A stretch of DNA of 40,424 nt from Streptomyces coryli (lineage in GTDB: Bacteria > Actinomycetota > Actinomycetes > Streptomycetales > Streptomycetaceae), in the NCBI RefSeq assembly GCF_011044975.1, contig NZ_JAAKZV010000047.1, positions 1-40,424 on the forward strand. The letters are read 5' to 3'. Numbering within the stretch: the first letter of the stretch is position 1; every line of letters starts with the position of its first letter. The position numbers were made by a program, and so were the translations under genes. The notes below the pieces were generated by a model. It had not been told where the DNA came from. It searched no databases and was given only the letters and a program-made list of their open reading frames with translations. This document shows, piece after piece, positions 1,083-25,335 of this stretch.

Positions 1083-3035
1083 CTAGGGCACCTTCACCCA
1101 CTTCGCCTTCGACGGCACGCCCTTGGCGTCCGTGACGAAGAGCATGTACCAGCCGGGCGGCGCCAGCGACGTGTCCTCCGGCGTCTTGAAGGTGACCGAG
1201 TCGCCCTTCTTCGTAAGGTCAAGGGCGATCGAGCGCTGCTCGACGTCCGTGACGTGGGTGACCGCGCTCGGGCGCATCAGGCGGGCGTTCTTGACCTTCT
1301 TCGCGTCCTCCACGGTGAAGGTCGCCTTGGCGCCGCGCTCCAGCTTCTTCGGGCCCTTGCCGATGGTGAGCCGCTCGGCCTTGCCGTCGGCGGTGTGCAG
1401 ATACGGCGGCTCGTAGACCTCGATGCGCTTCTCGAACTCGCCGAGGACCGTGTTCGCCTTGTTGCCGTACAGCGGGTCGGAGCCGAAGGTCGCCACCCGG
1501 CCGTCGGGGAGCAGCATCGCCTCGGAGTGGTAGTTGCGGCCGACCGTCGGTGAGGCCGCCTTCGTGAAGCGGTTCTTCTCCGGGTCGTAGATCTGCGACT
1601 TGAAGACGTCGCTGTTGGAGCGGCCGCGGTAGTCCTTCGAGCCGCCGGTGGTGAAGACCGAGTCGTCCGGCATGATCACGCTGTTGAGATAGCGGGTCCC
1701 TTGCGGGAGGTCCGGGCCCTTCTTGAAGGAAGGGGTCTCCTTCATCAGGTCCACCACCGCGGTGCGCGGCGTGGCCTTCTTGGACTCGCCGACCCCGCCG
1801 CCGCCGAGGATCATCACCTTCTGGTCCTGGGCCGGGGGCAGCAGCAGCGAGCTGGAGGTCTCGGTCTCGTCCTTGTCGGTGAGGCCCGGGACCGGGGTGA
1901 ACTTGTTCTTCTTCACGTCCCAGGTGCCGGGCTGGCGGCCGCGGTCGGCGGCGCCGTAGCCGGCGTTGGAGCCGGAGTAGAAGAGCTTGCCGCCCTTGGT
2001 GAGGAAGAGCGCCGGGTAGGTCGGGAAGTAGCGCTTGGGGCCCTTGGTCCACTTCCTGGTCTTCGGGTCGTAGATCTCGTTGTCGCCCTGCAGGATCTCG
2101 CCGATGTCGTCGAGGCCCGAGACCGCCATCACCTTGCCGTTGGCGAGGGTCACCAGCGTCGGGTACCAGCGGGCGGCGTCCATGGCCTCGACGCGCTCGT
2201 ACTTCTCCGTCTCCGGGTTGAACTCGAAGGCGTCGCGGATGCCCTGGAAGTCCTGCTTCTCCAGGGTCATGCGCTGGGCGAGGCCGTAGACATTGTCGAG
2301 GTCCTTGCCCTGCAGACCCTCCACCGTGTACTGCGAGGGGCGGTTGTTGACCGCCTCCCGGCCCTTGTCCACCGCCTCGACGAAGACCTTCGCCTCGCTG
2401 GCCTTGACGGTGACCTTGCCCTTCTTGCCGTTCGACTTCTTCTTCGCCTTCGGCAGGTCGACGGGGAAGGCGGTGCGGTACTCGATGCCGGCCGCGGATA
2501 TGAAGCGGGTGCCCTTGGGCAGCCGGTGCTTCTTCTCCGGGTCCTCGTTCTTGACCACCATCCGGCCGCCGGCCTTCTCCACGTCGCCGTGCAGCTTCTC
2601 GTAGCGGGCGGTGCCGCCGGCGACCAGCAGATTCCCGCTGGGCAGCTGCGCGTGGCCGGCGCAGAACATGTCGGCGGGGGTGGGGATCTTCTTGTACGTG
2701 TTCTTCTCCGGGTCCCACAGGACGGTCTTGAACTCGCCCGCGTCGAACTGCTCCTGCTTGTTCCCGGAGCCCGCGACCAGCAGCACTTTGCCGGTGTGCA
2801 GCAGGGCGGCGTGGATGGAGTTCAGCCGGTAGCCGTCGGGGACGTCCATCAGCCCCCAGCTGCCGTACTGGGCCTTGTACTTCGGCTGCGAGATCACGTA
2901 GTCGTGGTACTGCTCCTTGGCGAAGCCGTACGTCGCGGGCGCGTTCATCGCCGCGAGCAGCACGATCACGCCGCCGCCGACGGCGGTCTTCTTCAGGTTC
3001 AGGCGCTTGCGCTTGCTGTCCCCGTGATCAGGCAT
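1083..3035 (-). CDS. glxA: GlxA-type copper radical oxidase (galactose-oxidase-like)
   Basis: A 650-aa mononuclear copper radical oxidase that in Streptomyces acts with CslA on the tip glycan. The basic N-terminus (KRKRLNLKK) is followed by one hydrophobic segment (about residues 17-37), so it is exported or membrane-anchored. The body is a kelch-type propeller with a galactose-oxidase-like C-terminal domain. By alignment to galactose oxidase from memory, the cofactor residues are present: Cys125 in DMFCAGHAQLP, Tyr291 after Trp290 in ARWYPTL (the Tyr-Cys crosslink partner), Tyr502-His503 in NYHSEAMLLPDGRV, and His594 in AVTHVTDVEQRS. It overlaps the end of cslA by 8 nt, so the two are translationally coupled. 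Oxidising terminal hydroxyls of the glycan is the accepted family role; the exact substrate cannot be read from sequence. Confidence 0.93.
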   Translation of the reverse strand: MPDHGDSKRKRLNLKKTAVGGGVIVLLAAMNAPATYGFAKEQYHDYVISQPKYKAQYGSWGLMDVPDGYRLNSIHAALLHTGKVLLVAGSGNKQEQFDAGEFKTVLWDPEKNTYKKIPTPADMFCAGHAQLPSGNLLVAGGTARYEKLHGDVEKAGGRMVVKNEDPEKKHRLPKGTRFISAAGIEYRTAFPVDLPKAKKKSNGKKGKVTVKASEAKVFVEAVDKGREAVNNRPSQYTVEGLQGKDLDNVYGLAQRMTLEKQDFQGIRDAFEFNPETEKYERVEAMDAARWYPTLVTLANGKVMAVSGLDDIGEILQGDNEIYDPKTRKWTKGPKRYFPTYPALFLTKGGKLFYSGSNAGYGAADRGRQPGTWDVKKNKFTPVPGLTDKDETETSSSLLLPPAQDQKVMILGGGGVGESKKATPRTAVVDLMKETPSFKKGPDLPQGTRYLNSVIMPDDSVFTTGGSKDYRGRSNSDVFKSQIYDPEKNRFTKAASPTVGRNYHSEAMLLPDGRVATFGSDPLYGNKANTVLGEFEKRIEVYEPPYLHTADGKAERLTIGKGPKKLERGAKATFTVEDAKKVKNARLMRPSAVTHVTDVEQRSIALDLTKKGDSVTFKTPEDTSLAPPGWYMLFVTDAKGVPSKAKWVKVP

Positions 3036-4848
3036 CTGCGATCAGCTCCCCACTCGTCGTCAGTGCGGGGTCCGGCTCCCCCGCCGGTTCCTTGATTTCC
3101 TTGGCGAGGGACACCCCGCGGCGCGGCCGCTGCACATCGGCGAGCTCCGGCGCCTCGGCGGCCCGGGTCGCCCGCCTGTCCCGCAGCAGGCACCAGCCCC
3201 AGATCGCCGCCGGCGCGATGGCGATGCCGGTGCCGAGCACCGTCCAGGTCCGCATCGCCACATGCGTGTTGTTGAAGACGATCGAGGCGAGGAACGAAAC
3301 CGCCAGCAGCGCCGCCCAGGACAGGTGGATACGGAAGGTCGCCAGCCGGTCCGGACTGGCCGTGGCGCCCTTCGGCGTCACCACGAACTTGCTCGGCCGC
3401 CGCAGCACCGCGTCCACGAAGGACTTGAAGTAGATCGGCGCCGACATCGCCGACATCGCCATGCCCGCCACGCCGCCGGAGCCCTCCGGCTCGTGCGGGG
3501 AGACGTTGTGCCGCCGGTTCCACATGTAGAGCCCGATCTGCAGCGCGGCGGCATCGGCGTAGAGCATCAGCCAGACCTCGCTGGGCACCTGGGTGCCGGA
3601 GGCGCCGAGCCACAGGAAGAGCACGCAACTGAGCGCGCCGAGCAGCCAGTTGACCGCCGTCATCGGGTAGTAGGCGAGCATCAGCGAGTAGCTGGCGAGC
3701 CGCCCGACGGGGAAGCGCTCTTCCCCGCGCCCGTACTGATTGATGAGCGTCTCGTACGTGCCCCGCGACCAGCGCATCTGCTGGGTGAAGAAGTCCGTCC
3801 AGGACTCCGGGCCCTCGCCGACGGCGAGCACGTCGGGGGTGTAGACGGAGCGCCAGCGCTGCCCGGTCTCCGGGTTGCGGGTGCGGTGCAGCTCGAAGCC
3901 GGTGGCCATGTCCTCGGTGATCGAGTCGTAGAGGCCGCCGATGCCCTTGACCGCGGATATCCGTACGGCGTTGTTGGTGCCGACGAACATCGGGGCGCCG
4001 TAGCGGTTGCCCGCCCGCTGGATCAGCGCGTGGAAGAGGAACTGCTGCGACTCCGCGAATTTGGTGACGGTGGCGTCGTAGTTCCCGTAGACCTGCGGGC
4101 CGACGACGAAGGCGATGTCCTCGTCGCGGAAGTAGCCGAGCATCCGCTCCAGGAAGTTCGGCTGCGGGACGTGGTCGGTGTCGACCGAGGCGAAGAAGTC
4201 ATAGGCGTCGCCGTGCGCCTCGAGCCAGGCGTTGTAGTTGCCGTGCTTGGTCTTGGCCTTGTTACGGCCCTCGGGCTGGTTCCACTTTTCGACGCCCTTG
4301 CGGGAGAAGTGCCTGACGCCCAGCTCTTCGCAGAGCGCCCGGGCCTCGGGGTCATTGCCCTCGTCCAGCAGCCAGACGTGCAGGGTGCCCGGGTGGTGCA
4401 TGTTCACCGCGCCCGTCAGGGTCGCCCGCACCATCGCTATGGGCTCCTTGCCCGGCACGTAGGTGGTGAGGAAGGCGACCTTGGTGCCCTTCGCGGGCGG
4501 GACGGGTATCGGGTCGCGGGCGACCATGGTCGCGTGCGCGATCGAGACGACGTTGATGAGCCGGAACGCCTCGATCAGGAAGATCGAGAGCAGCATGACG
4601 GCGTCCGCGGCTATCAGCCAGAACGGGGCGCCGTGGCGCTCGGTCCAGTGCGACGGCCAGACCAGGTACAGCAGCAGCACCAGCGACAGCACCGGGGCGA
4701 GCGCCATCAGGGCTATCGCGCGTATCCGGTGCGGCTCCTGGGAGAGCAGGCTCCGGTACTGAACGCGATACGTTCCGTCCGGGGCCGGTTCGGTCAGCGG
4801 TCCCGCGAGACGGCTGAATTTCTCGTAGTCGTAGCCCCTCGGCTGCAC
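3028..4848 (-). CDS. cslA: Cellulose-synthase-like GT2 glycosyltransferase CslA
   Basis: A 606-aa processive family-2 glycosyltransferase in the cytoplasmic membrane that builds the beta-glucan-like polymer at Streptomyces hyphal tips. It has two N-terminal membrane segments (about residues 45-100), a cytoplasmic GT-A domain, then several C-terminal membrane segments forming the export channel. Catalytic motifs are complete: SVDTD with Asp223/Asp225, SITED with Asp313, and QQMRW at 356-360. I see no PilZ domain, so direct c-di-GMP control is not indicated. The start is GTG at 4848 with GGAGGG just upstream. It is first in an operon with glxA. The upstream 91 nt hold a plausible TAGGAC -10 box about 35 nt before the GTG. 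Confidence 0.93.
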   Translation of the reverse strand: MQPRGYDYEKFSRLAGPLTEPAPDGTYRVQYRSLLSQEPHRIRAIALMALAPVLSLVLLLYLVWPSHWTERHGAPFWLIAADAVMLLSIFLIEAFRLINVVSIAHATMVARDPIPVPPAKGTKVAFLTTYVPGKEPIAMVRATLTGAVNMHHPGTLHVWLLDEGNDPEARALCEELGVRHFSRKGVEKWNQPEGRNKAKTKHGNYNAWLEAHGDAYDFFASVDTDHVPQPNFLERMLGYFRDEDIAFVVGPQVYGNYDATVTKFAESQQFLFHALIQRAGNRYGAPMFVGTNNAVRISAVKGIGGLYDSITEDMATGFELHRTRNPETGQRWRSVYTPDVLAVGEGPESWTDFFTQQMRWSRGTYETLINQYGRGEERFPVGRLASYSLMLAYYPMTAVNWLLGALSCVLFLWLGASGTQVPSEVWLMLYADAAALQIGLYMWNRRHNVSPHEPEGSGGVAGMAMSAMSAPIYFKSFVDAVLRRPSKFVVTPKGATASPDRLATFRIHLSWAALLAVSFLASIVFNNTHVAMRTWTVLGTGIAIAPAAIWGWCLLRDRRATRAAEAPELADVQRPRRGVSLAKEIKEPAGEPDPALTTSGELIADA

Positions 4849-4939: not shown

Positions 4940-5272
4940 TCAAGCAGCCTGGCGTGCCTGCGCGGCGATCACCGACGCCTCGCTCTCCCGGCGGAGCATG
5001 CGGTCGGCGAAGAAGCCGCCGGTCGGGAGGACGGAGAGGATGAAGTAGATCGCGCCCTTCTTGAAGTCCCACTTCGAGCGGTTCCAGGCGTCCGCGAGGA
5101 AGAGGACGTACGCGATGAAGAGGACGCCGTGGATCGCGCCCATCACCGGCACGGCATTGAAGTCGGTGGTCCGCTTGAGCACCGAGCAGACGAGCAGCAG
5201 CAGGAAGGACACGGCCTCGGGTCCGGAGACCAGGCGGAGGCGGCGCTGGGCGGCGGCGGTCTTGATGTCCAT
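4940..5272 (-). CDS. DUF3817 integral membrane protein
   Basis: A 110-aa membrane protein with three hydrophobic segments (about residues 17-32, 45-62, 72-86) and the family pattern of an IHG motif (GAIHGVLFIAYVLFLAD) followed by a short basic loop and an LPTGGFFADR segment. This matches actinobacterial DUF3817 proteins, whose function is unknown. The start is ATG at 5272; the open frame runs further upstream but that part is low-quality sequence. It reads toward cslA with a 91-nt gap and diverges from the first AIM24 gene. It is a paralogue of the product at 10837-11175, and both lie near MarR genes. Confidence 0.85.
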   Translation of the reverse strand: MDIKTAAAQRRLRLVSGPEAVSFLLLLVCSVLKRTTDFNAVPVMGAIHGVLFIAYVLFLADAWNRSKWDFKKGAIYFILSVLPTGGFFADRMLRRESEASVIAAQARQAA

Positions 5273-5378
5273 GGAGAACCTTCGGTCCGGGGGCTTCGGC
5301 TTGTGCAGGGGTTCACAAGCTCCTTGCCATTGTGCCAAGCCTTTCCGTACGCCCTTCTCCGGGGGCATCCGCGCCGGA

Positions 5379-5392
5379 TACCGTCGCATCCG
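5379..5392 (+). promoter_or_regulatory. -10 box and leaderless start of first AIM24 gene
   Basis: TACCGT (5379-5384) fits the TAnnnT -10 consensus and is followed by exactly 7 nt and then the GTG at 5392. No Shine-Dalgarno sequence precedes the GTG. Transcription would begin at or next to the start codon. Confidence 0.6.
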
Positions 5393-6030
5393 TGGCGGAC
5401 TTCACACTCCAGGGGAGCAAGGTGCTCGCCGTCCGGATGGGCGGCGACTCCGTAAAAGCGAAGAACGGCGCCATGGTCGCGTACGACGGTCAGATGGCCT
5501 TCAAGCGGCTCAGTGGCGGCGGCGAGGGGATACGGGGGATGGTGACCCGGCGGCTGGCCGGCGAGTCCATGACGATGATGGAGGTCAAGGGGACGGGGAC
5601 CTGCTATTTCGCGGACCGGGCGAGTGAGATCAACCTCGTCCAGCTGGGCGGCGAGAAGCTTTGGGTAGAGGCCAGCAATCTGCTCTGCACCGACGGCGGC
5701 CTGCGCACCGGCACCGCCTTCACCGGCCTGCGCGGCGCCAGCCAGGGCAACGGCCTCTTCACCACCACGCTGGAGGGCGCGGGCACGGCCGCGATCATGT
5801 CCGACGGCCCCGCGGTGGTGCTGCGGGTGGCGCCCGGCATGCCGCTGACGGTGGACCCGGGTGCGTACGTGGCGCACACCGGCAATCTCACCCAGCAGTT
5901 CCAGTCGGGCGTGAACTTCCGCACCGTCATCGGTGAGGGCGGCGGCGAGGCGTTCCAGATCCGGTTCGAGGGGGACGGGCTCGTGTACGTGCAGCCCAGC
6001 GAGCGCAACACGATCGGGGGCGACGTCTGA
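5392..6030 (+). CDS. AIM24 family protein, copy 1
   Basis: A 212-aa protein of the AIM24 family (beta-rich fold, named from a yeast mitochondrial protein; bacterial role unclear). It has no signal peptide or membrane segment, so it is probably cytoplasmic. Family features include VAYDGQMAFKR near residue 25-35, a GxGIRGMVTRRLAGE segment, repeated Gly-rich turns, and VDPGAYVAHTGNL leading into GEGGGEAFQIRFEGDGLVYVQPSE at the end. The chosen GTG start (5392) gives MADFTLQGSKVLAV, typical of the family; the upstream in-frame ATG at 5332 lies in the promoter. The stop overlaps the start of copy 2 (TGATG). Confidence 0.85.
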   Translation: MADFTLQGSKVLAVRMGGDSVKAKNGAMVAYDGQMAFKRLSGGGEGIRGMVTRRLAGESMTMMEVKGTGTCYFADRASEINLVQLGGEKLWVEASNLLCTDGGLRTGTAFTGLRGASQGNGLFTTTLEGAGTAAIMSDGPAVVLRVAPGMPLTVDPGAYVAHTGNLTQQFQSGVNFRTVIGEGGGEAFQIRFEGDGLVYVQPSERNTIGGDV

Positions 6031-6680
6031 TGCCGTTCACCCAGGTCAACAGCAAGGTCGTGCAGGCGAAGATCCAGGCCGGGCAGCGGCTGTACAGCCA
6101 GCGCGGCGCGATGCTCGCCTACTCCGGCGCGGTCTCTTTCACTCCGGACCTGGCAGGCGGCCAGGGCGGCATCGGCGGCATGATCGGCCGCCGGGTGGCG
6201 AACGAGGCCACGCCGCTGATGACGGTCGAGGGCGACGGCACGGTGATGTTCGGCCACGGCGGCCACCACATCGAGGTCATCGAGCTGTCCGGCGAGACCC
6301 TCTACGTCGAGGCCGACCGGCTGCTTGCCTTCGACGGGCAGCTGCGCCAGGGCACGATGTTCATGGGCCAGCAGGGCGGCGTCATGGGCATGGTCCGCGG
6401 CCAGGTCACCGGCCAGGGCCTCTTCACCACCACCCTCGCGGGCAACGGCGCGGCGGCCGTGATGGCGCACGGCGGGGTGCTGGCCCTGCCCGTAACGCCG
6501 CAGTCGCCGGTCCATGTGGACCCGCAGGCCTACGTCGCGCACCGCGGCGAGCTGCAGAACAAGCTGACCACCGCGCTCGGCTGGCGCGAGATGGTCGGCC
6601 GCGGCTCAGGAGAGGGCTTCCAGCTGGAGCTGACCGGCAGCGGCACGGTGTACGTACAAGCCTCGGAGGAAAAGCTGTGA
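6030..6680 (+). CDS. AIM24 family protein, copy 2
   Basis: A 216-aa AIM24-family protein, clearly homologous to its upstream neighbour along its whole length (MLAYSGAVSFTPDL, GGMIGRRVANEATPLMTVEGDGTVMFG, VDPQAYVAHRGELQNKL, GSGEGFQLELTGSGTVYVQASE). The ATG sits inside TGATG at the stop of copy 1, and its own stop overlaps the GTG of copy 3, so the three are translationally coupled and probably made in equal amounts. No signal peptide is visible. The function is not known; a hetero-oligomer with its neighbours is an inference. Confidence 0.88.
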   Translation: MPFTQVNSKVVQAKIQAGQRLYSQRGAMLAYSGAVSFTPDLAGGQGGIGGMIGRRVANEATPLMTVEGDGTVMFGHGGHHIEVIELSGETLYVEADRLLAFDGQLRQGTMFMGQQGGVMGMVRGQVTGQGLFTTTLAGNGAAAVMAHGGVLALPVTPQSPVHVDPQAYVAHRGELQNKLTTALGWREMVGRGSGEGFQLELTGSGTVYVQASEEKL

Positions 6681-7411
6681 CACCCCCCGTATCAGCTCCT
6701 GTGATCCACGACGTCAACACGCTGCCCTCCGGGGACAACGTCAACCCGTACGCCTTTAGCGTGGACGTGCAGGGCCAGTGGTTCCTGCAGAAGGGGAAGA
6801 TGATCGCCTATTACGGGCAGCTCTCCTTCGACGGCGTCGGCCACGGCCGCTTCGACCGGCTGCTCGCCGGATCCTTCCATTCGCCGATGCACGCGGCGGA
6901 CTGGGTGGTGGCCGAGGGCAGCGGAAAGATGCTGCTCGCGGACCGGTCGTTCGACATCAACTCCTACGACCTCGACGACGGCAACCTCACCATCCGCTCC
7001 GGGAATCTGCTCGCCTACGAGCCCGGCCTGGCGCTGAAGCAGTCAATCATCCCGGGCTTCCTCACCCTGATCGGTACGGGGAAGTTCGTCGCCGCGTCCA
7101 ACGGACCGGTGATCTTCGCCGAGCCGCCGATCCGGGTCGACCCGGAGGCGCTGGTCGGCTGGGCCGACTGCCCGTCGCCCTGCCATCACTACGACCACCA
7201 GTACCTGCGCGGCGTCCTCGGCGGCGTGCGCAGGCTCACTGGCCTGGGCGGGGCGTCGGGGGAGGAGCACCAGTACGAGTTCGTCGGCGCCGGGACGGTG
7301 CTGCTGCAGTCCTCGGAGCAGGTGATGGCGGCGCGCCCGACGGGCGCCACGCCGGGTCAACAAGGCGTTCCACGGCAGCGCGGCGGCGTCGGAGGCCTGC
7401 TCGATATGTGA
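6677..7411 (+). CDS. AIM24 family protein, copy 3 (divergent)
   Basis: A 244-aa AIM24-family protein, more diverged than the other two. The start is GTG at 6677, overlapping the previous stop (GTGA) and preceded by GGAGGA at 6665-6670. Family features are present: KMIAYYGQLSFDG, LLADRSFDINSYDLDDGNLTIRSGNLLAYEPGL and a final GAGTVLLQSSEQV. It differs by an inserted CPSPCHHYDHQYLRG segment before the last strand pair, with two Cys and three His close together, which could bind a metal (inference). It also has a Gly/Arg-rich 25-residue tail. It is the last gene of the AIM24 operon. Confidence 0.85.
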   Translation: MTPPVSAPVIHDVNTLPSGDNVNPYAFSVDVQGQWFLQKGKMIAYYGQLSFDGVGHGRFDRLLAGSFHSPMHAADWVVAEGSGKMLLADRSFDINSYDLDDGNLTIRSGNLLAYEPGLALKQSIIPGFLTLIGTGKFVAASNGPVIFAEPPIRVDPEALVGWADCPSPCHHYDHQYLRGVLGGVRRLTGLGGASGEEHQYEFVGAGTVLLQSSEQVMAARPTGATPGQQGVPRQRGGVGGLLDM

Positions 7412-7415
7412 GCCA

Positions 7416-7421
7416 TACTCT
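7416..7421 (+). promoter_or_regulatory. Putative -10 box of MarR gene
   Basis: TACTCT just after the AIM24 operon fits TAnnnT. A transcript from it would have a leader of about 40 nt before the ATG at 7467. No clear -35 is visible. Confidence 0.35.
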
Positions 7422-7466
7422 GCGGCGCCCCGTCCCCCAAGACCCGCTGCGTAGGTGCCCGTCCAG

Positions 7467-7925
7467 ATGAAGACTCGATGGCTGAGTGATTCGGAACAGC
7501 GTGCCTGGCGCACCCATCTCGAGGTGAGCCGCATGCTGATGTATCAGCTGGAACGGGACCTGCAGCCCTACGGCCTGACGAACAACGACTACGAGATCCT
7601 GGTCAACCTCTCGGAGGCGGACGGCCGCCGGATGCGCATGAGCGATCTGGCGGCCGCCACGCTGCAGTCCAAGAGCCGGCTCTCGCACCAGATCACCCGG
7701 ATGGAGAGCACCGGTCTGGTACGGCGCGAGCACTGCGAGTCGGACCGCCGCGGTCTCTTCGCCTGCCTGACCGACCAGGGTTGGCAGACGATACAGCGGG
7801 TGTCCCCGCACCATGTCGCGTCGGTCCGCAAGCACTTCATCGACCTGCTGACGCCCGACCAGCTGGAGACCGTGCACAAGGCCCTGAGTCCGGTGGCCGG
7901 CCGGCTGCGGGAGCTCAGGTCGTAG
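7467..7925 (+). CDS. MarR family transcriptional regulator
   Basis: A 152-aa winged-helix regulator of the MarR family, expected to act as a dimer. It has an N-terminal helix (WLSDSEQRAWRTHLEVSRML), a recognition region MSDLAAATLQSKSRLSHQITRMESTGLVRR, and a wing with CESDRRGLFACLTDQG. No ligand can be inferred. An in-frame GTG at 7455 is an alternative start; the ATG at 7467 has GTAGG about 11 nt upstream. It follows the AIM24 operon after 55 nt and converges on the ArsR-type gene with 15 nt between stops. Whether it controls the AIM24 genes cannot be told from sequence. Confidence 0.9.
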   Translation: MKTRWLSDSEQRAWRTHLEVSRMLMYQLERDLQPYGLTNNDYEILVNLSEADGRRMRMSDLAAATLQSKSRLSHQITRMESTGLVRREHCESDRRGLFACLTDQGWQTIQRVSPHHVASVRKHFIDLLTPDQLETVHKALSPVAGRLRELRS

Positions 7926-11307: not shown

Positions 11308-13008
11308 ATGGACGCCGAGCAGATCGGGGCAGGTCGCAAGCGCTGGCAGGAGCGGTACGACGCCGCCCGTAAGCGCGACGCCGACTTCACGACGCTCTCC
11401 GGCGACGCGGTCGAGCCGGTCTACGGACCCCGCCCAGGTGACGCGTACGAGGGCTTCGAGCGCATCGGCTGGCCGGGGGAGTACCCGTTCACCCGCGGCC
11501 TGTACGCCACCGGCTACCGCGGCCGCACCTGGACCATCCGGCAGTTCGCGGGCTTCGGCAATGCCGAGCAGACCAACGAGCGCTACAAGATGATCCTGAA
11601 GGCGGGCGGCGGCGGCCTGTCCGTCGCCTTCGACATGCCGACGCTGATGGGTCGCGACTCCGACGACCCGCGCTCGCTCGGCGAGGTCGGGCACTGCGGG
11701 GTGGCGATCGACTCGGCGGCGGACATGGAGGTCCTGTTCAAGGACATCCCGCTGGGCGACGTCACGACATCGATGACGATCTCGGGCCCGGCGGTCCCGG
11801 TCTTCTGTATGTACCTGGTCGCGGCGGAGCGCCAGGGCGTGGACCCGGCGGTGCTCAACGGCACGCTCCAGACCGACATCTTCAAGGAGTACATCGCGCA
11901 GAAGGAGTGGCTCTTCACCCCCGAGCCGCACCTGCGCCTCATCGGCGACCTGATGGAGCACTGCGCGCAGGGCATCCCCGCGTACAAGCCACTGTCGGTG
12001 TCCGGCTACCACATCCGTGAGGCGGGTGCGACAGCCGCGCAGGAGCTGGCGTACACCCTCGCCGACGGCTTCGGTTACGTGGAGCTGGGGCTGTCGCGGG
12101 GCCTCGACGTGAATCGTTTCGCCCCAGGGCTGAGCTTCTTCTTCGACGCCCACGTCGACTTCTTCGAGGAGATCGCCAAGTTCCGCGCGGCGCGCCGGAT
12201 CTGGGCGCGCTGGATGCGCGATGTGTACGGGGCGACGAGCGAGAAGGCGCAGTGGCTGCGCTTCCACACGCAGACGGCGGGCGTCTCGCTGACGGCGCAG
12301 CAGCCGTACAACAACGTGGTCCGGACGGCAGTCGAGGCGCTGGCGGCGGTGCTCGGCGGCACGAACTCGCTGCACACGAACGCGCTGGACGAGACCTTGG
12401 CGCTCCCGTCCGAGCAGGCGGCGGAGATCGCGCTGCGCACCCAGCAGGTGCTGATGGAGGAGACCGGCGTCGCCAACGTGGCCGACCCGCTGGGCGGTTC
12501 CTGGTACCTCGAGCAGCTCACGGACCGCATCGAGGCCGACGCGGAGAAGATCTTCGAGCAGATCAAGGAGCGGGGGGTGCGCGCGCACCCGGACGGTCAG
12601 CACCCGATCGGCCCGATCACGTCGGGCATCCTGCGCGGCATCGAGGACGGCTGGTTCACGGGCGAGATCGCGGAGTCGGCCTTCCAGTACCAGCAGTCCC
12701 TGGAGAAGGGCGACAAGAGGGTCGTCGGCGTGAACGCCCACCACGGGTCGGTGACCGGCGATCTGGAGATCCTCCGGGTCAGCCATGAGGTGGAGCGCGA
12801 GCAGGTGCGGGTGCTCAGCGGCCGTAAGTCGGCCCGGGATGATGCGGCGGTACGGGCGGCGCTGGACGGGATGCTGGCGGCGGCCCGCGATGGCTCGAAC
12901 ATGATCGAGCCGATGCTGACGGCGGTGCGCGCCGAGGCCACGCTGGGGGAGATCTGCAATGTCCTGCGGGACGAGTGGGGGGTCTATACGGAGCCGGCGG
13001 GCTTCTGA
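11308..13008 (+). CDS. icmA: Isobutyryl-CoA mutase large subunit IcmA
   Basis: A coenzyme-B12-dependent acyl-CoA mutase large subunit that interconverts isobutyryl-CoA and n-butyryl-CoA, linking valine breakdown with butyrate and polyketide precursor supply. At 566 aa it has the length of known Streptomyces IcmA and lacks the C-terminal B12-binding domain of methylmalonyl-CoA mutase. Two residues that separate the families read as isobutyryl type: Phe80 in TIRQFAGF (Tyr in methylmalonyl-CoA mutase) and Gln198 in EYIAQKEW (Arg in methylmalonyl-CoA mutase, where it holds the carboxylate). The small subunit (IcmB, B12-binding) is not in this window and must be encoded elsewhere. The start is ATG at 11308 behind GGAGAGG. 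A 20-bp palindrome upstream suggests dedicated control. Confidence 0.93.
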   Translation: MDAEQIGAGRKRWQERYDAARKRDADFTTLSGDAVEPVYGPRPGDAYEGFERIGWPGEYPFTRGLYATGYRGRTWTIRQFAGFGNAEQTNERYKMILKAGGGGLSVAFDMPTLMGRDSDDPRSLGEVGHCGVAIDSAADMEVLFKDIPLGDVTTSMTISGPAVPVFCMYLVAAERQGVDPAVLNGTLQTDIFKEYIAQKEWLFTPEPHLRLIGDLMEHCAQGIPAYKPLSVSGYHIREAGATAAQELAYTLADGFGYVELGLSRGLDVNRFAPGLSFFFDAHVDFFEEIAKFRAARRIWARWMRDVYGATSEKAQWLRFHTQTAGVSLTAQQPYNNVVRTAVEALAAVLGGTNSLHTNALDETLALPSEQAAEIALRTQQVLMEETGVANVADPLGGSWYLEQLTDRIEADAEKIFEQIKERGVRAHPDGQHPIGPITSGILRGIEDGWFTGEIAESAFQYQQSLEKGDKRVVGVNAHHGSVTGDLEILRVSHEVEREQVRVLSGRKSARDDAAVRAALDGMLAAARDGSNMIEPMLTAVRAEATLGEICNVLRDEWGVYTEPAGF

Positions 13009-13079
13009 CGTTGTGCCCTATGCCGCGCCCGCCCGCTGGTCCCGCTGGCTGAGGGCGGTCTCGCGCCGCTGCCACGGGG

Positions 13080-13595
13080 GAGTTGGCATCGGATGGTGAC
13101 GGCCGCGCGGCCGGCTTCCCGCTGGTCCCGGCGCCGGTGAGTTGGCTGGCTACGGGAGGGGTGGGGCGTTGGTCTGCCGGGCGGCGCTCGTGGTCGGCGG
13201 TCCCAGTAGCGGGCTGGACGGCTTGGGGTGCCGGGTGGCGGTGCGCCTCGCCTGCCCGTCAGGACTGCGGGAGGATGCCTGCCCTTCCCCCGACACACCC
13301 CCAGGAAAAAGAGCGCGCGCCTACCCTCGTGCGCCCCGCGCTCGTGCCTTCGCGCCTCGCCCTGCCCGGGCCAAGCCCCGCCCCGCAGGCCACCACAGTC
13401 CCGCGCCCGGACGCCCCGGCCTCCACTTCCCCGGGCCCCCGGGCTCCTCCGCCCTGCCGCGTTCCGCCCGGAAACAAACCGCTGCCCGGCAGATCAACGC
13501 CCTCCGCCGCCCCACTCCTCCCGTAGCCAGCCAACCCACCGGCACCGCCCGGAACTCACGACGGCAACGCGGCCGTCACCATCCGCTACCAACTC
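13080..13595. repeat. Long imperfect inverted repeat in a gene-free stretch
   Basis: The 657-bp interval after icmA (13009-13665) has no credible gene. Most of it is one large inverted repeat. Left-arm blocks 13080-13107, 13133-13168 and 13169-13186 pair in order with right-arm blocks 13568-13595, 13508-13543 and 13480-13497. By hand alignment the matches are 25-26/28, 34/36 and 16/18. The arms share GTTGGCTGGCTACGGGAGG. The region between the arms (13187-13479) is very GC-rich, Pro-codon-like in several frames and contains no clear ORF. Single-stranded DNA or RNA from it could fold into a stem of about 100 bp with a 300-nt loop. Confidence 0.75.
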
Positions 13596-13653
13596 ACCCG
13601 CTGCCAACTCACCCGCGCCGACCTCGCCCCACGCGACGGCCTACGGCCGGGGA

Positions 13654-13666
13654 TAGGCTCAGCAAG
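13654..13666 (+). promoter_or_regulatory. -10 box and leaderless start of small membrane protein gene
   Basis: TAGGCT (13654-13659) is followed by 6 nt and then the GTG at 13666, with no ribosome-binding site. Confidence 0.5.
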
Positions 13667-13872
13667 TGCACAGAAAACGAATCCGCGTCTCAACGGTCGG
13701 TTTCTGCGCCATCTGGTGGGCTGCAGCCACCGCCGGATTCTGGCTGCTGAGCAAGCTCAGCGACCAAGCCATGGGATGGCCGACCGCCGCCTGCTTCGCC
13801 CTCGTCGCCATCGTCAGTGGAGCCTTGGGCGAACGGTCACGCAACCGCCGACGCCGGCGAAGTCCCGGGTAA
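13666..13872 (+). CDS. Small membrane protein, unknown function
   Basis: A 68-aa protein with a basic N-terminus (HRKRIR), two hydrophobic segments (about residues 9-28 and 36-54, with WWAAATAGFWLL and ACFALVAIVSGALG), and a very basic end (RSRNRRRRRSPG). The charge layout predicts both termini inside. I do not recognise a family. Support is the GTG with a leaderless-type -10 box and the clean two-helix pattern. It stands alone between the inverted repeat and the monooxygenase-like gene. Confidence 0.6.
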   Translation: MHRKRIRVSTVGFCAIWWAAATAGFWLLSKLSDQAMGWPTAACFALVAIVSGALGERSRNRRRRRSPG

Positions 13873-13901
13873 GACCCTGTTCGGCCCGTAACGTCCCGCC
13901 A

Positions 13902-13914
13902 TAGAGTCGCCCCA
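13902..13914 (+). promoter_or_regulatory. -10 box and leaderless start of ABM-domain gene
   Basis: TAGAGT (13902-13907) is followed by 6 nt and then the ATG at 13914. No ribosome-binding site is present. Confidence 0.55.
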
Positions 13915-14246
13915 TGATCTGTCGTCAGTGGCGTGGCTGGACCACCAAGGACAACGCCGACGCCTACGAGCACATCGTCCGGGGACAAGTCATCCCCGGC
14001 ATCGAGGCGATGCGCATACCAGGTTTCCTCTCGATCGACCTGGCCCGGCGCGAGCGCGACAGCGAGGACGACGTAGAGTTCATGACCCTGATGTGGTTCG
14101 ACGCTCTCGCCTCCGTCAAGGCCTTCATGGGTGAGGACTACGAGACGGCACACGTGCCCGCCGCCGCCCAAGCGGTGCTCACCCACTTCGACAAGCAGTC
14201 CGCGCACTACGAGGTACTCGACCGCCGCGACCAGCCCCGCCTCTGA
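13914..14246 (+). CDS. Antibiotic biosynthesis monooxygenase (ABM)-like small protein
   Basis: A 110-aa protein resembling the ABM/dimeric alpha-beta-barrel superfamily: a CRQWRGWT strand, helix NADAYEHIVRGQVIPGIEAM, the strand GFLSIDLARRER, then VEFMTLMWFDALASVKAFMGEDYETAHVP, the usual position of the final strand and helix. These proteins can oxidise quinol-type substrates or act as heme or stress proteins; the activity here is unknown. It converges on the response-regulator gene. A small GC-rich hairpin lies between them. Confidence 0.75.
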   Translation: MICRQWRGWTTKDNADAYEHIVRGQVIPGIEAMRIPGFLSIDLARRERDSEDDVEFMTLMWFDALASVKAFMGEDYETAHVPAAAQAVLTHFDKQSAHYEVLDRRDQPRL

Positions 14247-14254
14247 GCGCAGCC

Positions 14255-14280
14255 CCCGCGGTCGGACCGACGCGAGCGGG
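14255..14280. terminator. Possible bidirectional hairpin
   Basis: CCCGC (14255-14259) and GCGGG (14276-14280) enclose a GTCGG-A-CCGAC inverted repeat in the 42-bp gap between two convergent genes. The position suits a terminator for both; the stem is short and has no U-tract. Confidence 0.35.
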
Positions 14281-14288
14281 TGGCGGCC

Positions 14289-14951
14289 TCACCGCGCCTC
14301 CAGGCGATAGCCGGCGCCGCGGACCGTGTGGATCAGCCCGGGGCCCAGCTTGCGGCGCAGGGCACTCACGTACACCTCGACGATGTTCGGGTCGCCGCTC
14401 TCGTACGCGAAGTCCCAGGCGTAGTCGAGGATTTCGGCCTTGGACACCACCTCGCCCGGATGCAGCGCAAGCTGCTCGAGCACCGAGAACTCCTTCTTGG
14501 TGAGCGGTATTTCGGCGCCCGCGCGCAGCACGCGCCGGGCCACCGCGTCCACCCGCAGGTCACCCAGGGCAAGCGCAGCCCGCGTGCGGCCGGCGCGGTA
14601 GCGCAGCAGAGCCTTGATCCGGGCCACGAGCACCACAAATGAGAACGGCCTGGTGAGGTAGTCGTCCGCCCCCGTGTCCAGCCCTTCGGCCTCGTCGTAC
14701 TCGCCGTCCTTGCGGGTGAGCATCAGGATCGGTACGTCATCGCCCGCGGCCCGCAGCCTGGCGCAGACCCGGTATCCGTTCAGCCCGGGCAGCAGGACGC
14801 CGAGCACGATCAGGTCGTACGGCGCCATGGCGGCCCGGTGCAGCCCCGCGATGCCGTCGTGGACGACGTCCACGGCGAAGCCCTGCGCCTTCAGACCCTT
14901 GGCCAGGGAAGCGGCGAGCCGTTTCTCGTCCTCCACGATCAGCAGACGCAT
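14289..14951 (-). CDS. OmpR-family response regulator with lost phospho-acceptor
   Basis: A 220-aa two-domain regulator: receiver (1-118) and winged-helix trans_reg_C domain (about 128-218, ending HTVRGAGYRLEAR). The acidic pocket E7-D8-E9 is present. The phospho-acceptor position, which should read LDVxLPG, is Gly51 (IVLGVLLPGLNG), and the conserved Lys of the KPF motif is Arg101 (YLTRPFS). Either change is one base from the usual codon. The protein therefore probably cannot be phosphorylated in the normal way. No histidine kinase gene is adjacent. The start is ATG at 14951 with GAGGAGG upstream; a GTG at 14975 is possible. It diverges from the PepSY gene across TTCAGGTT direct repeats. The otherwise intact frame suggests retained DNA binding or a recent loss. 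Confidence 0.88.
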   Translation of the reverse strand: MRLLIVEDEKRLAASLAKGLKAQGFAVDVVHDGIAGLHRAAMAPYDLIVLGVLLPGLNGYRVCARLRAAGDDVPILMLTRKDGEYDEAEGLDTGADDYLTRPFSFVVLVARIKALLRYRAGRTRAALALGDLRVDAVARRVLRAGAEIPLTKKEFSVLEQLALHPGEVVSKAEILDYAWDFAYESGDPNIVEVYVSALRRKLGPGLIHTVRGAGYRLEAR

Positions 14952-14998
14952 GCGCCCCGGCCTCCTCTCACGCACACCTGAAATGATCTTCGACTGGC

Positions 14999-23007: not shown

Positions 23008-23852
23008 CCACCCAGCCCGACTTCGACCGCGAGACCGCCGTCACTCCGCGAGCCGGTGAGCCCGGCGCGTACGACACCGACCTGCCCGGCAGCTTCCGCA
23101 TCGGCATGGGCATCAACGGCGGGCTGCTGCTGTCCGTCGCCGCCCGCGCGCTGCAGGCCGAGCTGGGGCAGGGCGAGGACGCGCACCGGGACCCGTTCTC
23201 GATCAGCGCCTACTACCTGACCACGTCGGCCGCCGGCCCGGCCACCGTGCGCACCGAGACGCTGCGCCGGGGCCGTACGGTCTCCACCGGCGCGGCCACG
23301 CTCACTCAGCCCGGCGAGGACGGCGAGCCGGTCGAACGGCTGCGCGCGCTGGCCACCTTCGGCGACCTCAACGGGCACGACAACGGCGACGTCCGCACCA
23401 CCGCCAAGCCGCCGCAGCTGCCGCCGCCGGAGCAGTGCGTGACCTCGGACCAGGCGCCGAAGGAGTTCACCCACGCCGCGCCGCTGCTGAAGCGCATCGA
23501 CGTCCGGCTCGACCCCGACACCGTCGGCTGGGCGGTGGGCGAGCCATCGCACCGTGGCGAGATCCGCGGCTGGTTCCGGCTGCCGGAGGGCCGCGAGCCC
23601 GACCCGCTGCTGCTCCTGCTGGTCGCGGACGTGCTGCCGCCGGTCACCTTCGACCTGGGCATCATCGACTGGGCGCCGACCCTGGAACTGACCGCCCACG
23701 TCCGCGCGCACCCCGCGCCGGGCTGGCTGCGTGTGGTGCACTCCACCCGCAACTTCGCCGACGGTTATCTGGAGGAGGACGCGGAGATCTGGGACTCGAC
23801 GGACCGGCTGGTCGCCCAGTCGCGGCAGCTGGCGCGGGTGCGTACGACCTGA
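23004..23852 (+). CDS. Acyl-CoA thioesterase-like protein (hotdog family)
   Basis: A 282-aa two-hotdog protein of the TesB-like thioesterase superfamily. The first half contains INGGLLLSVAARAL and DPFSISAYYLTTSAAGPATVRTETLRRGRTVSTGAATLTQ; the second half contains LLLLVADVLPPVTFDLGIIDWAPTLELTAHVRAHPAPGWLRVVHSTRNFADGYLEEDAEIWDSTDRLVAQSRQLARVR. These are the usual sequence landmarks of the family. The start is a TTG at 23004, decided by GGAAGGA 8 nt upstream and overlap with the TetR stop. Expression should follow the TetR gene. Confidence 0.85.
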   Translation: MTTQPDFDRETAVTPRAGEPGAYDTDLPGSFRIGMGINGGLLLSVAARALQAELGQGEDAHRDPFSISAYYLTTSAAGPATVRTETLRRGRTVSTGAATLTQPGEDGEPVERLRALATFGDLNGHDNGDVRTTAKPPQLPPPEQCVTSDQAPKEFTHAAPLLKRIDVRLDPDTVGWAVGEPSHRGEIRGWFRLPEGREPDPLLLLLVADVLPPVTFDLGIIDWAPTLELTAHVRAHPAPGWLRVVHSTRNFADGYLEEDAEIWDSTDRLVAQSRQLARVRTT

Positions 23853-23916
23853 ACCCCGAGACCGGGGACGGCGCGCCGGGTATTACCCGCGCGCCCCCGG
23901 TGGTACCCATGCCCTC

Positions 23917-25335
23917 GTGGAGTGGTTCACCGACGACGGCTACTACTGGGCCCGGCTGGTCTTCCAGCGCGGGCTCGCCGCGCTCTACTGCGTGGCGTTC
24001 CTCGCCGCCGCGAATCAGTTCCGGGTGCTGATCGGCGAGCGCGGCATCACGCCGGTGCCGCGCTTCACCGCCCAGGTGCCGTTCAAGGCCGCGCCCAGCC
24101 TCTTCCAGCTCCGCTACTCCGACCGGCTGTTCGCCGCCGTCGCCTGGACAGGGGCGGCGCTGGCGGCGGCCGTCGTGCTCGGGGCGGCGGATGCCGTACC
24201 GCTGTGGGCGGCGATGGTGATCTGGCTCGTGCTCTGGGCGCTGTACATGTCGATCGTCAACGTCGGCCAGACCTGGTACGGCTTCGGGTGGGAGTCGCTG
24301 CTGCTGGAGACCGGATTCCTCGCCGTCTTCCTCGGCAACGATGAGACCGCCCCGCCGATCCTCATCCTCTTCCTGCTCCGCTGGCTGCTGTTCCGGGTGG
24401 AGTTCGGGGCCGGGTTGATCAAGATGCGCGGCGACCGCTGCTGGCGCGATCTGACCTGCCTGTACTACCACCACGAGACGCAGCCGATGCCGGGCCCGCT
24501 GAGCTGGTTCTTCCACCATCTGCCGAAGCCGCTGCACAAGGTCGAGACCGCCGCGAACCACGTCGCCCAGCTGGGCCTGCCGGTCCTCCTCTTCCTCCCG
24601 CAGCCGGTCGCCACCGCCGCCGCCCTCGCCATCGCCGTCACCCAGCTGTGGCTGGTGATCTCCGGCAACTTCTCCTGGCTGAACTGGATCACGATCCTGC
24701 TGGCGCTCTCCGCCGTCCAACTGCCGCTCCCGGACCGCGACCTCCCCGACGCCCCGCTCTGGTTCACGACCCTCGTCTGCGCCGCCACCGCCCTCGTGCT
24801 CGTCCTCAGCTACCGGCCGGCCCGCAACCTCCTCTCCCGGCAGCAGAAGATGAACGCCTCCTTCAACTCCCTGCACCTGGTGAACACTTACGGCGCCTTC
24901 GGCTCCATCACCCGCGTCCGCCAGGAGATCGTCATCGAGGGCACGGACGAACCCGTCCTGACACCGTCGACGCGCTGGCAGGAATACGAGTTCAAGGGCA
25001 AGCCCGGCGACCCCCACCGCCTCCCGCGCCAGTACGCGCCGTACCACCTGCGCCTCGACTGGCTGATGTGGTTCGCGGCGATGTCACCGTCGTACGCGGT
25101 GCGCTGGTTCCCGTCGCTGATCGCCAAGCTCCTCGACAACGACCGCCACCTCACCAAGCTGCTCCGCCACAACCCCTTCGCGACCGGCCCGCCGCCGACG
25201 TACATCCGGGCCCGGCTGTACCACTACACGTACTCCGACTGGCAGGAGCTCCGCGCCACCGGCAACTGGTGGCACCGCGAACTGGTCGGCGAGTATCTGC
25301 CGCCGGTCAGGCAGAGCGATCTGGTATCGGGTTAG
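23917..25335 (+). CDS. Lipase maturation factor (LMF1) family membrane protein
   Basis: A 472-aa multi-pass membrane protein with six or more hydrophobic segments in the first 300 residues. It has the LMF1-family landmarks TWYGFGWESLLLETGFLAVFLG, LLRWLLFRVEFGAGLIKMRGDRCWRDLTCLYYHHETQPMPGPLSWFFHHLP and, in the soluble C-terminal third, YGAFGSITRVRQEIVIEGT, WQEYEFKGKPGDP and QYAPYHLRLDWLMWFAA. In animals LMF1 folds secreted lipases in the ER; the bacterial role is unproven. The start is GTG at 23917, with TACCCA 7 nt upstream. It follows the thioesterase after 64 nt and its 3' end overlaps the convergent XRE-type gene by 29 bp. Confidence 0.88.
   Translation: MEWFTDDGYYWARLVFQRGLAALYCVAFLAAANQFRVLIGERGITPVPRFTAQVPFKAAPSLFQLRYSDRLFAAVAWTGAALAAAVVLGAADAVPLWAAMVIWLVLWALYMSIVNVGQTWYGFGWESLLLETGFLAVFLGNDETAPPILILFLLRWLLFRVEFGAGLIKMRGDRCWRDLTCLYYHHETQPMPGPLSWFFHHLPKPLHKVETAANHVAQLGLPVLLFLPQPVATAAALAIAVTQLWLVISGNFSWLNWITILLALSAVQLPLPDRDLPDAPLWFTTLVCAATALVLVLSYRPARNLLSRQQKMNASFNSLHLVNTYGAFGSITRVRQEIVIEGTDEPVLTPSTRWQEYEFKGKPGDPHRLPRQYAPYHLRLDWLMWFAAMSPSYAVRWFPSLIAKLLDNDRHLTKLLRHNPFATGPPPTYIRARLYHYTYSDWQELRATGNWWHRELVGEYLPPVRQSDLVSG

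Follow-up and report, generated by a model that had tools for sequence, protein, structure and literature searches.

What is the large imperfect inverted repeat that lies behind icmA in Streptomyces coryli, and by what route might it have come to lie there? An earlier note, made from the letters of the DNA alone, had described three blocks in a left arm that pair in order with blocks in a right arm about 290 bp away, within a gene-free stretch of 657 bp, and had offered a mobile repeat, a structured RNA or a head-to-head pair of intergenic units as explanations. Here the repeat is considered within the whole stretch of DNA in which it was found, 40,424 nucleotides of contig NZ_JAAKZV010000047.1 and hereafter the window, and in comparison with other Streptomyces genomes.

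The inverted repeat is real and stands well above chance. A repeat search returned three collinear inverted pairs, 13075-13113 with 13562-13600 (39 nt, 87%), 13129-13168 with 13508-13547 (40 nt, 93%) and 13154-13186 with 13480-13512 (33 nt, 82%), whose order is kept as the earlier note had it. These blocks are united by a single gapped alignment (125 columns, 74.4%) of the left arm, at 13075-13186 on the forward strand, with the right arm, which lies reversed on the opposite strand at 13480-13600. The spacer between them (13187-13479) is without coding signal and measures 293 bp, in agreement with the separation first estimated. Chance similarity had been declared ruled out, and the scores bear this out, as the local alignment of the two arms reaches 101 against a maximum of 38 and a mean of 24.5 among 300 randomised pairs, and against 37 for the best non-overlapping place when a sliding scan was run over the window. 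In a second randomisation (n=500), the arms gave a z of 11.9, the halves of the spacer 0.4 and the outer flanks 0.8, all randomisations of arms, spacer halves and flanks, as well as those of the L194 and G198 comparisons below, being first-order Markov resamples and not exact dinucleotide shuffles. The spacer halves are thus not alike beyond chance, and the similarity is confined to the arms. In addition, GC skew and AT skew both reverse sign near 13290, and a tandem repeat of a 15-bp unit (2.3 copies, 13583-13616, reverse strand) overlaps the outer end of the right arm.

The inverted repeat looks non-coding. GC content by codon phase is flat, at 0.64-0.84 in every phase of 150-nt windows starting from 13000 to 13525, compared with about 0.9/0.78/0.45 inside icmA. 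The ORFs scanned across the stretch had no Pfam match at E 1e-3 or at E 1, and six ORFs, two of them in a further scan, matched neither Pfam nor NCBIfam. With neither a codon-phase signal nor a protein family to its name, a protein-coding gene in the repeat stretch was rejected, including the conserved one that the earlier note had named as its refuter. As such, the description of the stretch as gene-free holds, but its length of 657 bp is less secure, since it assumes that a 68-aa ORF at 13666-13872 on the forward strand is a gene; given the weak coding signal of this ORF, the gap may extend over 905 bp, to 13914. By eye, the 68-aa ORF has a hydrophobic middle, and it matched no family at the cut-off used.

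The earlier note had proposed a search for the arms among Streptomyces genomes, and in 392 Streptomyces genomes and 394 genomes of the family, two partly overlapping sets in which two candidates were scored per genome, this search gave one single-arm look-alike, in genome G198, and neither paired arms nor any other two-armed homologue. Within the 40-kb window, no second copy of an arm and no likely source sequence was found. A 581-bp region containing the repeat had weak DNA matches in 135 of the 392 genomes (E 1.6e-8 to 1e-3), which fell on scattered parts of the query and of which none was near full length; few of these were read in context, and we treated the rest as GC-rich background. A 621-bp region had no match in plasmids or phages at E 1e-5, two exact patterns had none in IMG/VR viral contigs, and when the arms were compared with plasmids at a limit of E 5, none of the matches listed, all at E of about 0.03 or more, went beyond chance. 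The icmA piece used had a closest match of 89% at most in the 392 genomes of the genus, and for the 110-aa protein encoded at 13914-14246 on the forward strand, an ORF with clear codon phase, the best relative among the collected genomes is 83% identical; the closest genomes compared are thus not close relatives. As far as can be seen from these genomes, the repeat appears to be specific to the Streptomyces coryli lineage.

The right arm alone matched 2 of the 392 genomes at E 1e-5 and 10 of the 394 at E 1e-4, and ten of these twelve matches lie inside coding-like ORFs, the two outside being L039, which is the look-alike in G198, and L117. The G198 site (C42:32664-32727) shows 77% identity to the right arm across 65 bp, has no coding-like ORF over it, holds an exact 21-base core that fits the pattern of both arms, and aligns with both arms, resembling each more than any of 300 randomisations per pair. 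These features would be consistent with a repeat made of two head-to-head copies of a rare intergenic unit that occurs as a single arm elsewhere, for instance in G198. Of the options in the earlier note, which are borne out in part, this one comes closest to the local inverted duplication that we favour below; a dispersed family did not emerge from the searches, however, and we regard the head-to-head reading as quite unlikely. The G198 match was picked among the best of hundreds of genomes, and seven of the ten matches inside coding-like ORFs reach or pass its score of 53, with L033 at 59, L045 and L114 at 54, and L109, L110, L111 and L113 at 53 itself (the local phases of L111 being rather flat). 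The site is single-copy in G198, and seven further genomes searched with it returned nothing. Since matches in coding-like ORFs score as high or higher, G198 remains a lead. A search with the core pattern, allowing up to two mismatches, found matches in 50 of the 392 genomes, exact in G198 only; 57 matches were listed, 25 of them the single sequence CTGGTCGCGGATGGTGACGGC, and the reversed control pattern gave 18. The other match outside such ORFs, L117, is found at about 1491-1554 in another genome of the family, where a tandem array of GGGTGAGTTGG-type units lies outside any coding-like ORF; this array and the 15-bp tandem unit of the right arm are probably independent.

The ends of the repeat raise the question of whether it was once mobile, as the first of the earlier options would have it. 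A 9-bp direct repeat, CCGCTGCCA, is present on the forward strand in one copy that abuts the left arm (13066-13074) and in a second at the end of the right arm (13598-13606), and could be considered a weak candidate for a target-site duplication. It is the main feature in favour of a decayed, MITE-like non-autonomous element or insertion sequence remnant, about 525 bp in length and bounded by long terminal inverted repeats, that inserted after icmA with a 9-bp target duplication. Long inverted arms that flank a centre without coding signal would suit such an element, and the repeat shares with bacterial MITEs its inverted ends, its non-coding centre, its intergenic position and its length of a few hundred bp. 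However, bacterial MITEs are expected to occur in multiple copies and with a clean target-site duplication, and neither was seen for the window repeat in the sequences searched. There is no second copy in the window, in plasmids or in phages, and no convincing copy among the 392 and 394 genomes with two candidates scored in each. The direct repeat was found post hoc, extends 3 bp into the right arm and sits in the tandem array. In addition, the ORFs across the spacer are without Pfam match, so no remnant of a transposase is seen. Of the mobile-repeat option, the direct repeat at the ends is the main feature that speaks in its favour, while a protein family, a convincing copy and a clean duplication are lacking, and we consider it unlikely. 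An invertible switch was also rejected, as no recombinase was found among the proteins scanned, from 9014 rightward, and as the arms seem too diverged, which is our inference.

That an inverted repeat of this build can be part of something mobile is suggested by a survey of 77 stretches from other Streptomyces (1.54 Mb), in which two inverted repeats with a spacer approached or exceeded the 84 bits of the window repeat, namely L194 at 189 bits and L183, a 68% pair, at 74 bits. Spacerless palindromes reached equally high scores (L132, 97.8 bits; L137, 84.2 bits), so such repeats are uncommon without being unique. The L194 unit lies at 2758-3876 of its stretch of a Streptomyces chromosome and consists of 112-bp inverted arms, 97% identical, around a DUF4232 gene in an 895-bp spacer. 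A 201-bp query over one of its arms matched 24 plasmid records (22 from Streptomyces and 2 from Kitasatospora), some only in the inner part, and on the plasmid NZ_CP108445.1 (L205, about 3501-4260) a similar arm adjoins a DUF4232 gene. These plasmid matches, together with the shared DUF4232 neighbour, make the L194 unit look mobile, perhaps as a mobile unit with a cargo gene, and this lends some support to a mobile origin of the window repeat. The two are alike in having inverted arms of about 110 bp in a Streptomyces chromosome, but the near-identical arms, the long spacer with its gene and the plasmid matches of the L194 unit have no counterpart in the window repeat. The left arm is only weakly similar to the L194 arms (p 0.01 and 0.013 under one scoring, about 0.05 under the other), and the similarity of the right arm to them is not above chance. 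We set this weak kinship aside.

The position of the repeat between two converging genes suggests another role. Both icmA, on the forward strand, and a response regulator gene on the reverse strand (14289-14975) point toward it, which is why a function as a transcription boundary has to be weighed; the repeat might form a large GC-rich hairpin on both strands that stops the icmA transcript and the leftward transcript of the response regulator, or it might act as a structured RNA. The predicted folds of both strands are better than those of dinucleotide shuffles, with z of -8.8 and -9.5 and none of 100 shuffles as good, and to that extent they favour the structured-RNA option of the earlier note. 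Strong folding of both strands is, however, a consequence of the inverted repeat itself and would be expected from any other. No intrinsic-terminator-like site was detected at the repeat, no tRNA lies in the repeat stretch, and Rfam gave no match, even when the limit was relaxed from the gathering threshold to E 1. Given, in addition, arms that are 293 bp apart and the lack of a two-armed homologue in the genomes searched, a terminator or RNA role seems improbable.

The order of the genes around the repeat was compared with that in ten reference chromosomes over 60 kb around icmA, a non-random choice of the best icmA matches on long contigs. The gene at 11308-13008 on the forward strand encodes a large subunit of the methylmalonyl-CoA mutase family, presumably icmA, as the earlier note named it, and is the last gene of a block in which the usual partner marR is retained. 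In all ten references, the genes matching those at 7455, 6030, 5332 and 4940 of the window (4940-7925) are found upstream of icmA and run the other way round than in the window, and in two of them (G210 and G326) the genes 7941 and 9014 directly precede marR-icmA, as they do here. Downstream of icmA, a TetR gene follows in nine of the ten references, and in 26 of 32 short icmA loci one lies in the flanking sequence retrieved, one of the six misses, L050, having only 103 bp there; the TetR family assignment was confirmed for one copy. A relative of this downstream TetR was not found in the window. A response regulator like that at 14289 (72-76%) lies beyond the 4940-7925 block, beside a histidine kinase, in six of the ten references, and the kinase domains of this neighbour were confirmed in G303. 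In the other four references, no match to 14289 was found in the stretch, save one at 41% in G236.

The window reads, from left to right, 13(+), 1083(-), 3028(-), 4940(-), 5332(+), 6030(+), 7455(+), 7941(-), 9014(+), marR(+), icmA(+), the inverted repeat, 13914(+), the response regulator(-) and PepSY(+). Set against the references, the usual neighbourhoods are broken on both sides of a seam, with the repeat between icmA and the response regulator. By this comparison of gene order, the repeat sits at a synteny break, an observation that is new here beyond the earlier note. Two successive inversions would explain the order in the window, as would a single transfer of the 7941-icmA block that also inverted it; alternatively, the seam may stem from a misassembly. 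If one block was moved and inverted, the TetR and thioredoxin/TPR genes found behind icmA elsewhere would be expected to lie before position 1. The junction interval (13009-14288) contains the inverted repeat, the doubtful 68-aa ORF and the 110-aa ORF, and no remnants of TetR or of a histidine kinase were found in the gap after icmA. The 110-aa ORF bears a weak resemblance to an ABM domain (E 0.032, below cut-off) and is patchily distributed, with 12 relatives by pattern scan at 50-83% identity, from Streptomyces to Mesoflavibacter.

The repeat is absent from loci with the ancestral order, of which the 26 of 32 with TetR in the flank are the example, at an icmA identity of at most 89%. In all 32 loci, no comparable inverted repeat follows icmA (best score 38; L050 with 103 bp downstream), and no arm-like sequence was found there either (best arm score 32). 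Changes on the 3' side of icmA occur in other genomes too: TetR was not found in the stretch of G269, it is some 7 kb distant in G025, and six of the 32 short loci (L050 with its 103 bp among them) lack it in the flank, yet none of these loci has a comparable repeat. A break can thus arise at this place without any inverted repeat, and the window offers a single case of the two together.

Across the junction, the response regulator stands without the usual histidine kinase, which was not found in the 40-kb window, and where all six orthologues have the receiver Asp it has Gly (VLGVLLPG against VLDIMLPG and the like); in a second motif, Arg replaces a conserved Lys (LTRPF against LTKPF). We take the replaced Asp and Lys to be the phosphoacceptor and the switch Lys. 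Judging from these residues and the missing kinase, the protein is probably a phosphorylation-independent orphan.

Given its place at this seam, we favour the reading of the repeat as an inverted duplication that break repair left behind where a rearrangement was joined, a feature of known kind and no new class, and we do so tentatively, at somewhat less than an even chance. Two marks of a junction duplication are found here, namely mirror copies above chance with a spacer between them and a position at a break in conserved gene order. The repeat would be a local, non-coding inverted duplication of about 115 bp at the junction where the response-regulator/PepSY pair was brought up against the 3' end of icmA. 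Most likely, a double-strand break or a stalled fork was repaired either through fold-back synthesis or by taking up a fragment from close by in the reverse orientation, which would leave two mirror copies 293 bp apart that have diverged since. That duplication and rearrangement were one event, and that break repair was its cause, is what we infer from a single locus of a single genome; repeat and junction may have come together by coincidence, because a long intergenic gap is the likeliest site for any such feature. The high identity of the blocks (82-93%) beside poorly aligned stretches could come from selection on paired arms.

Fold-back synthesis is one route to an inverted duplication, and fragment capture would be another. 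In S. ambofaciens, the repair of induced breaks left insertions, which in two cases consisted of 42 or 83 bp taken from near the break (PMC5869714). The window repeat would resemble these scars in that fragments from near a break are inserted at the repair site and in that rearrangement proceeds through end joining; the scars, however, are induced and recent and, in the parts of that report on which we draw, not described as inverted (PMC5869714), whereas the window repeat would, judging from comparison, be old and diverged. Fold-back inverted duplications have been reported in yeast and human, and they share with the window repeat mirror copies at a rearrangement junction, but they are eukaryotic and were studied directly, while the window repeat is known from sequence alone (PMC10622511, PMC7467729, PMC3907307).

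If the reading as an inverted duplication is right, a small mirror copy marks a point at which a Streptomyces chromosome was cut and rejoined, and the locus would be an example of a striking inverted repeat that is a scar and neither an element nor an RNA. The cost would be visible next door, where of a two-component pair there remains a regulator with neither kinase nor receiver Asp, and this broken pair may be more telling than the repeat beside it. One might further speculate that the scar has since turned functional, as a long bidirectional hairpin that insulates icmA from the orphaned regulator, with kinase and phosphorylation site lost in the same upheaval, although we regard this as very unlikely. 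Elsewhere in the window, the lipase-maturation-factor-like ORF at 23731-25335 on the forward strand shows an irregularity of its own, as its first residues, to about position 58, resemble a different place in 8 of the 10 references, though weakly (E 9e-7 to 8e-4), perhaps because the start codon is misassigned or because two genes have fused.
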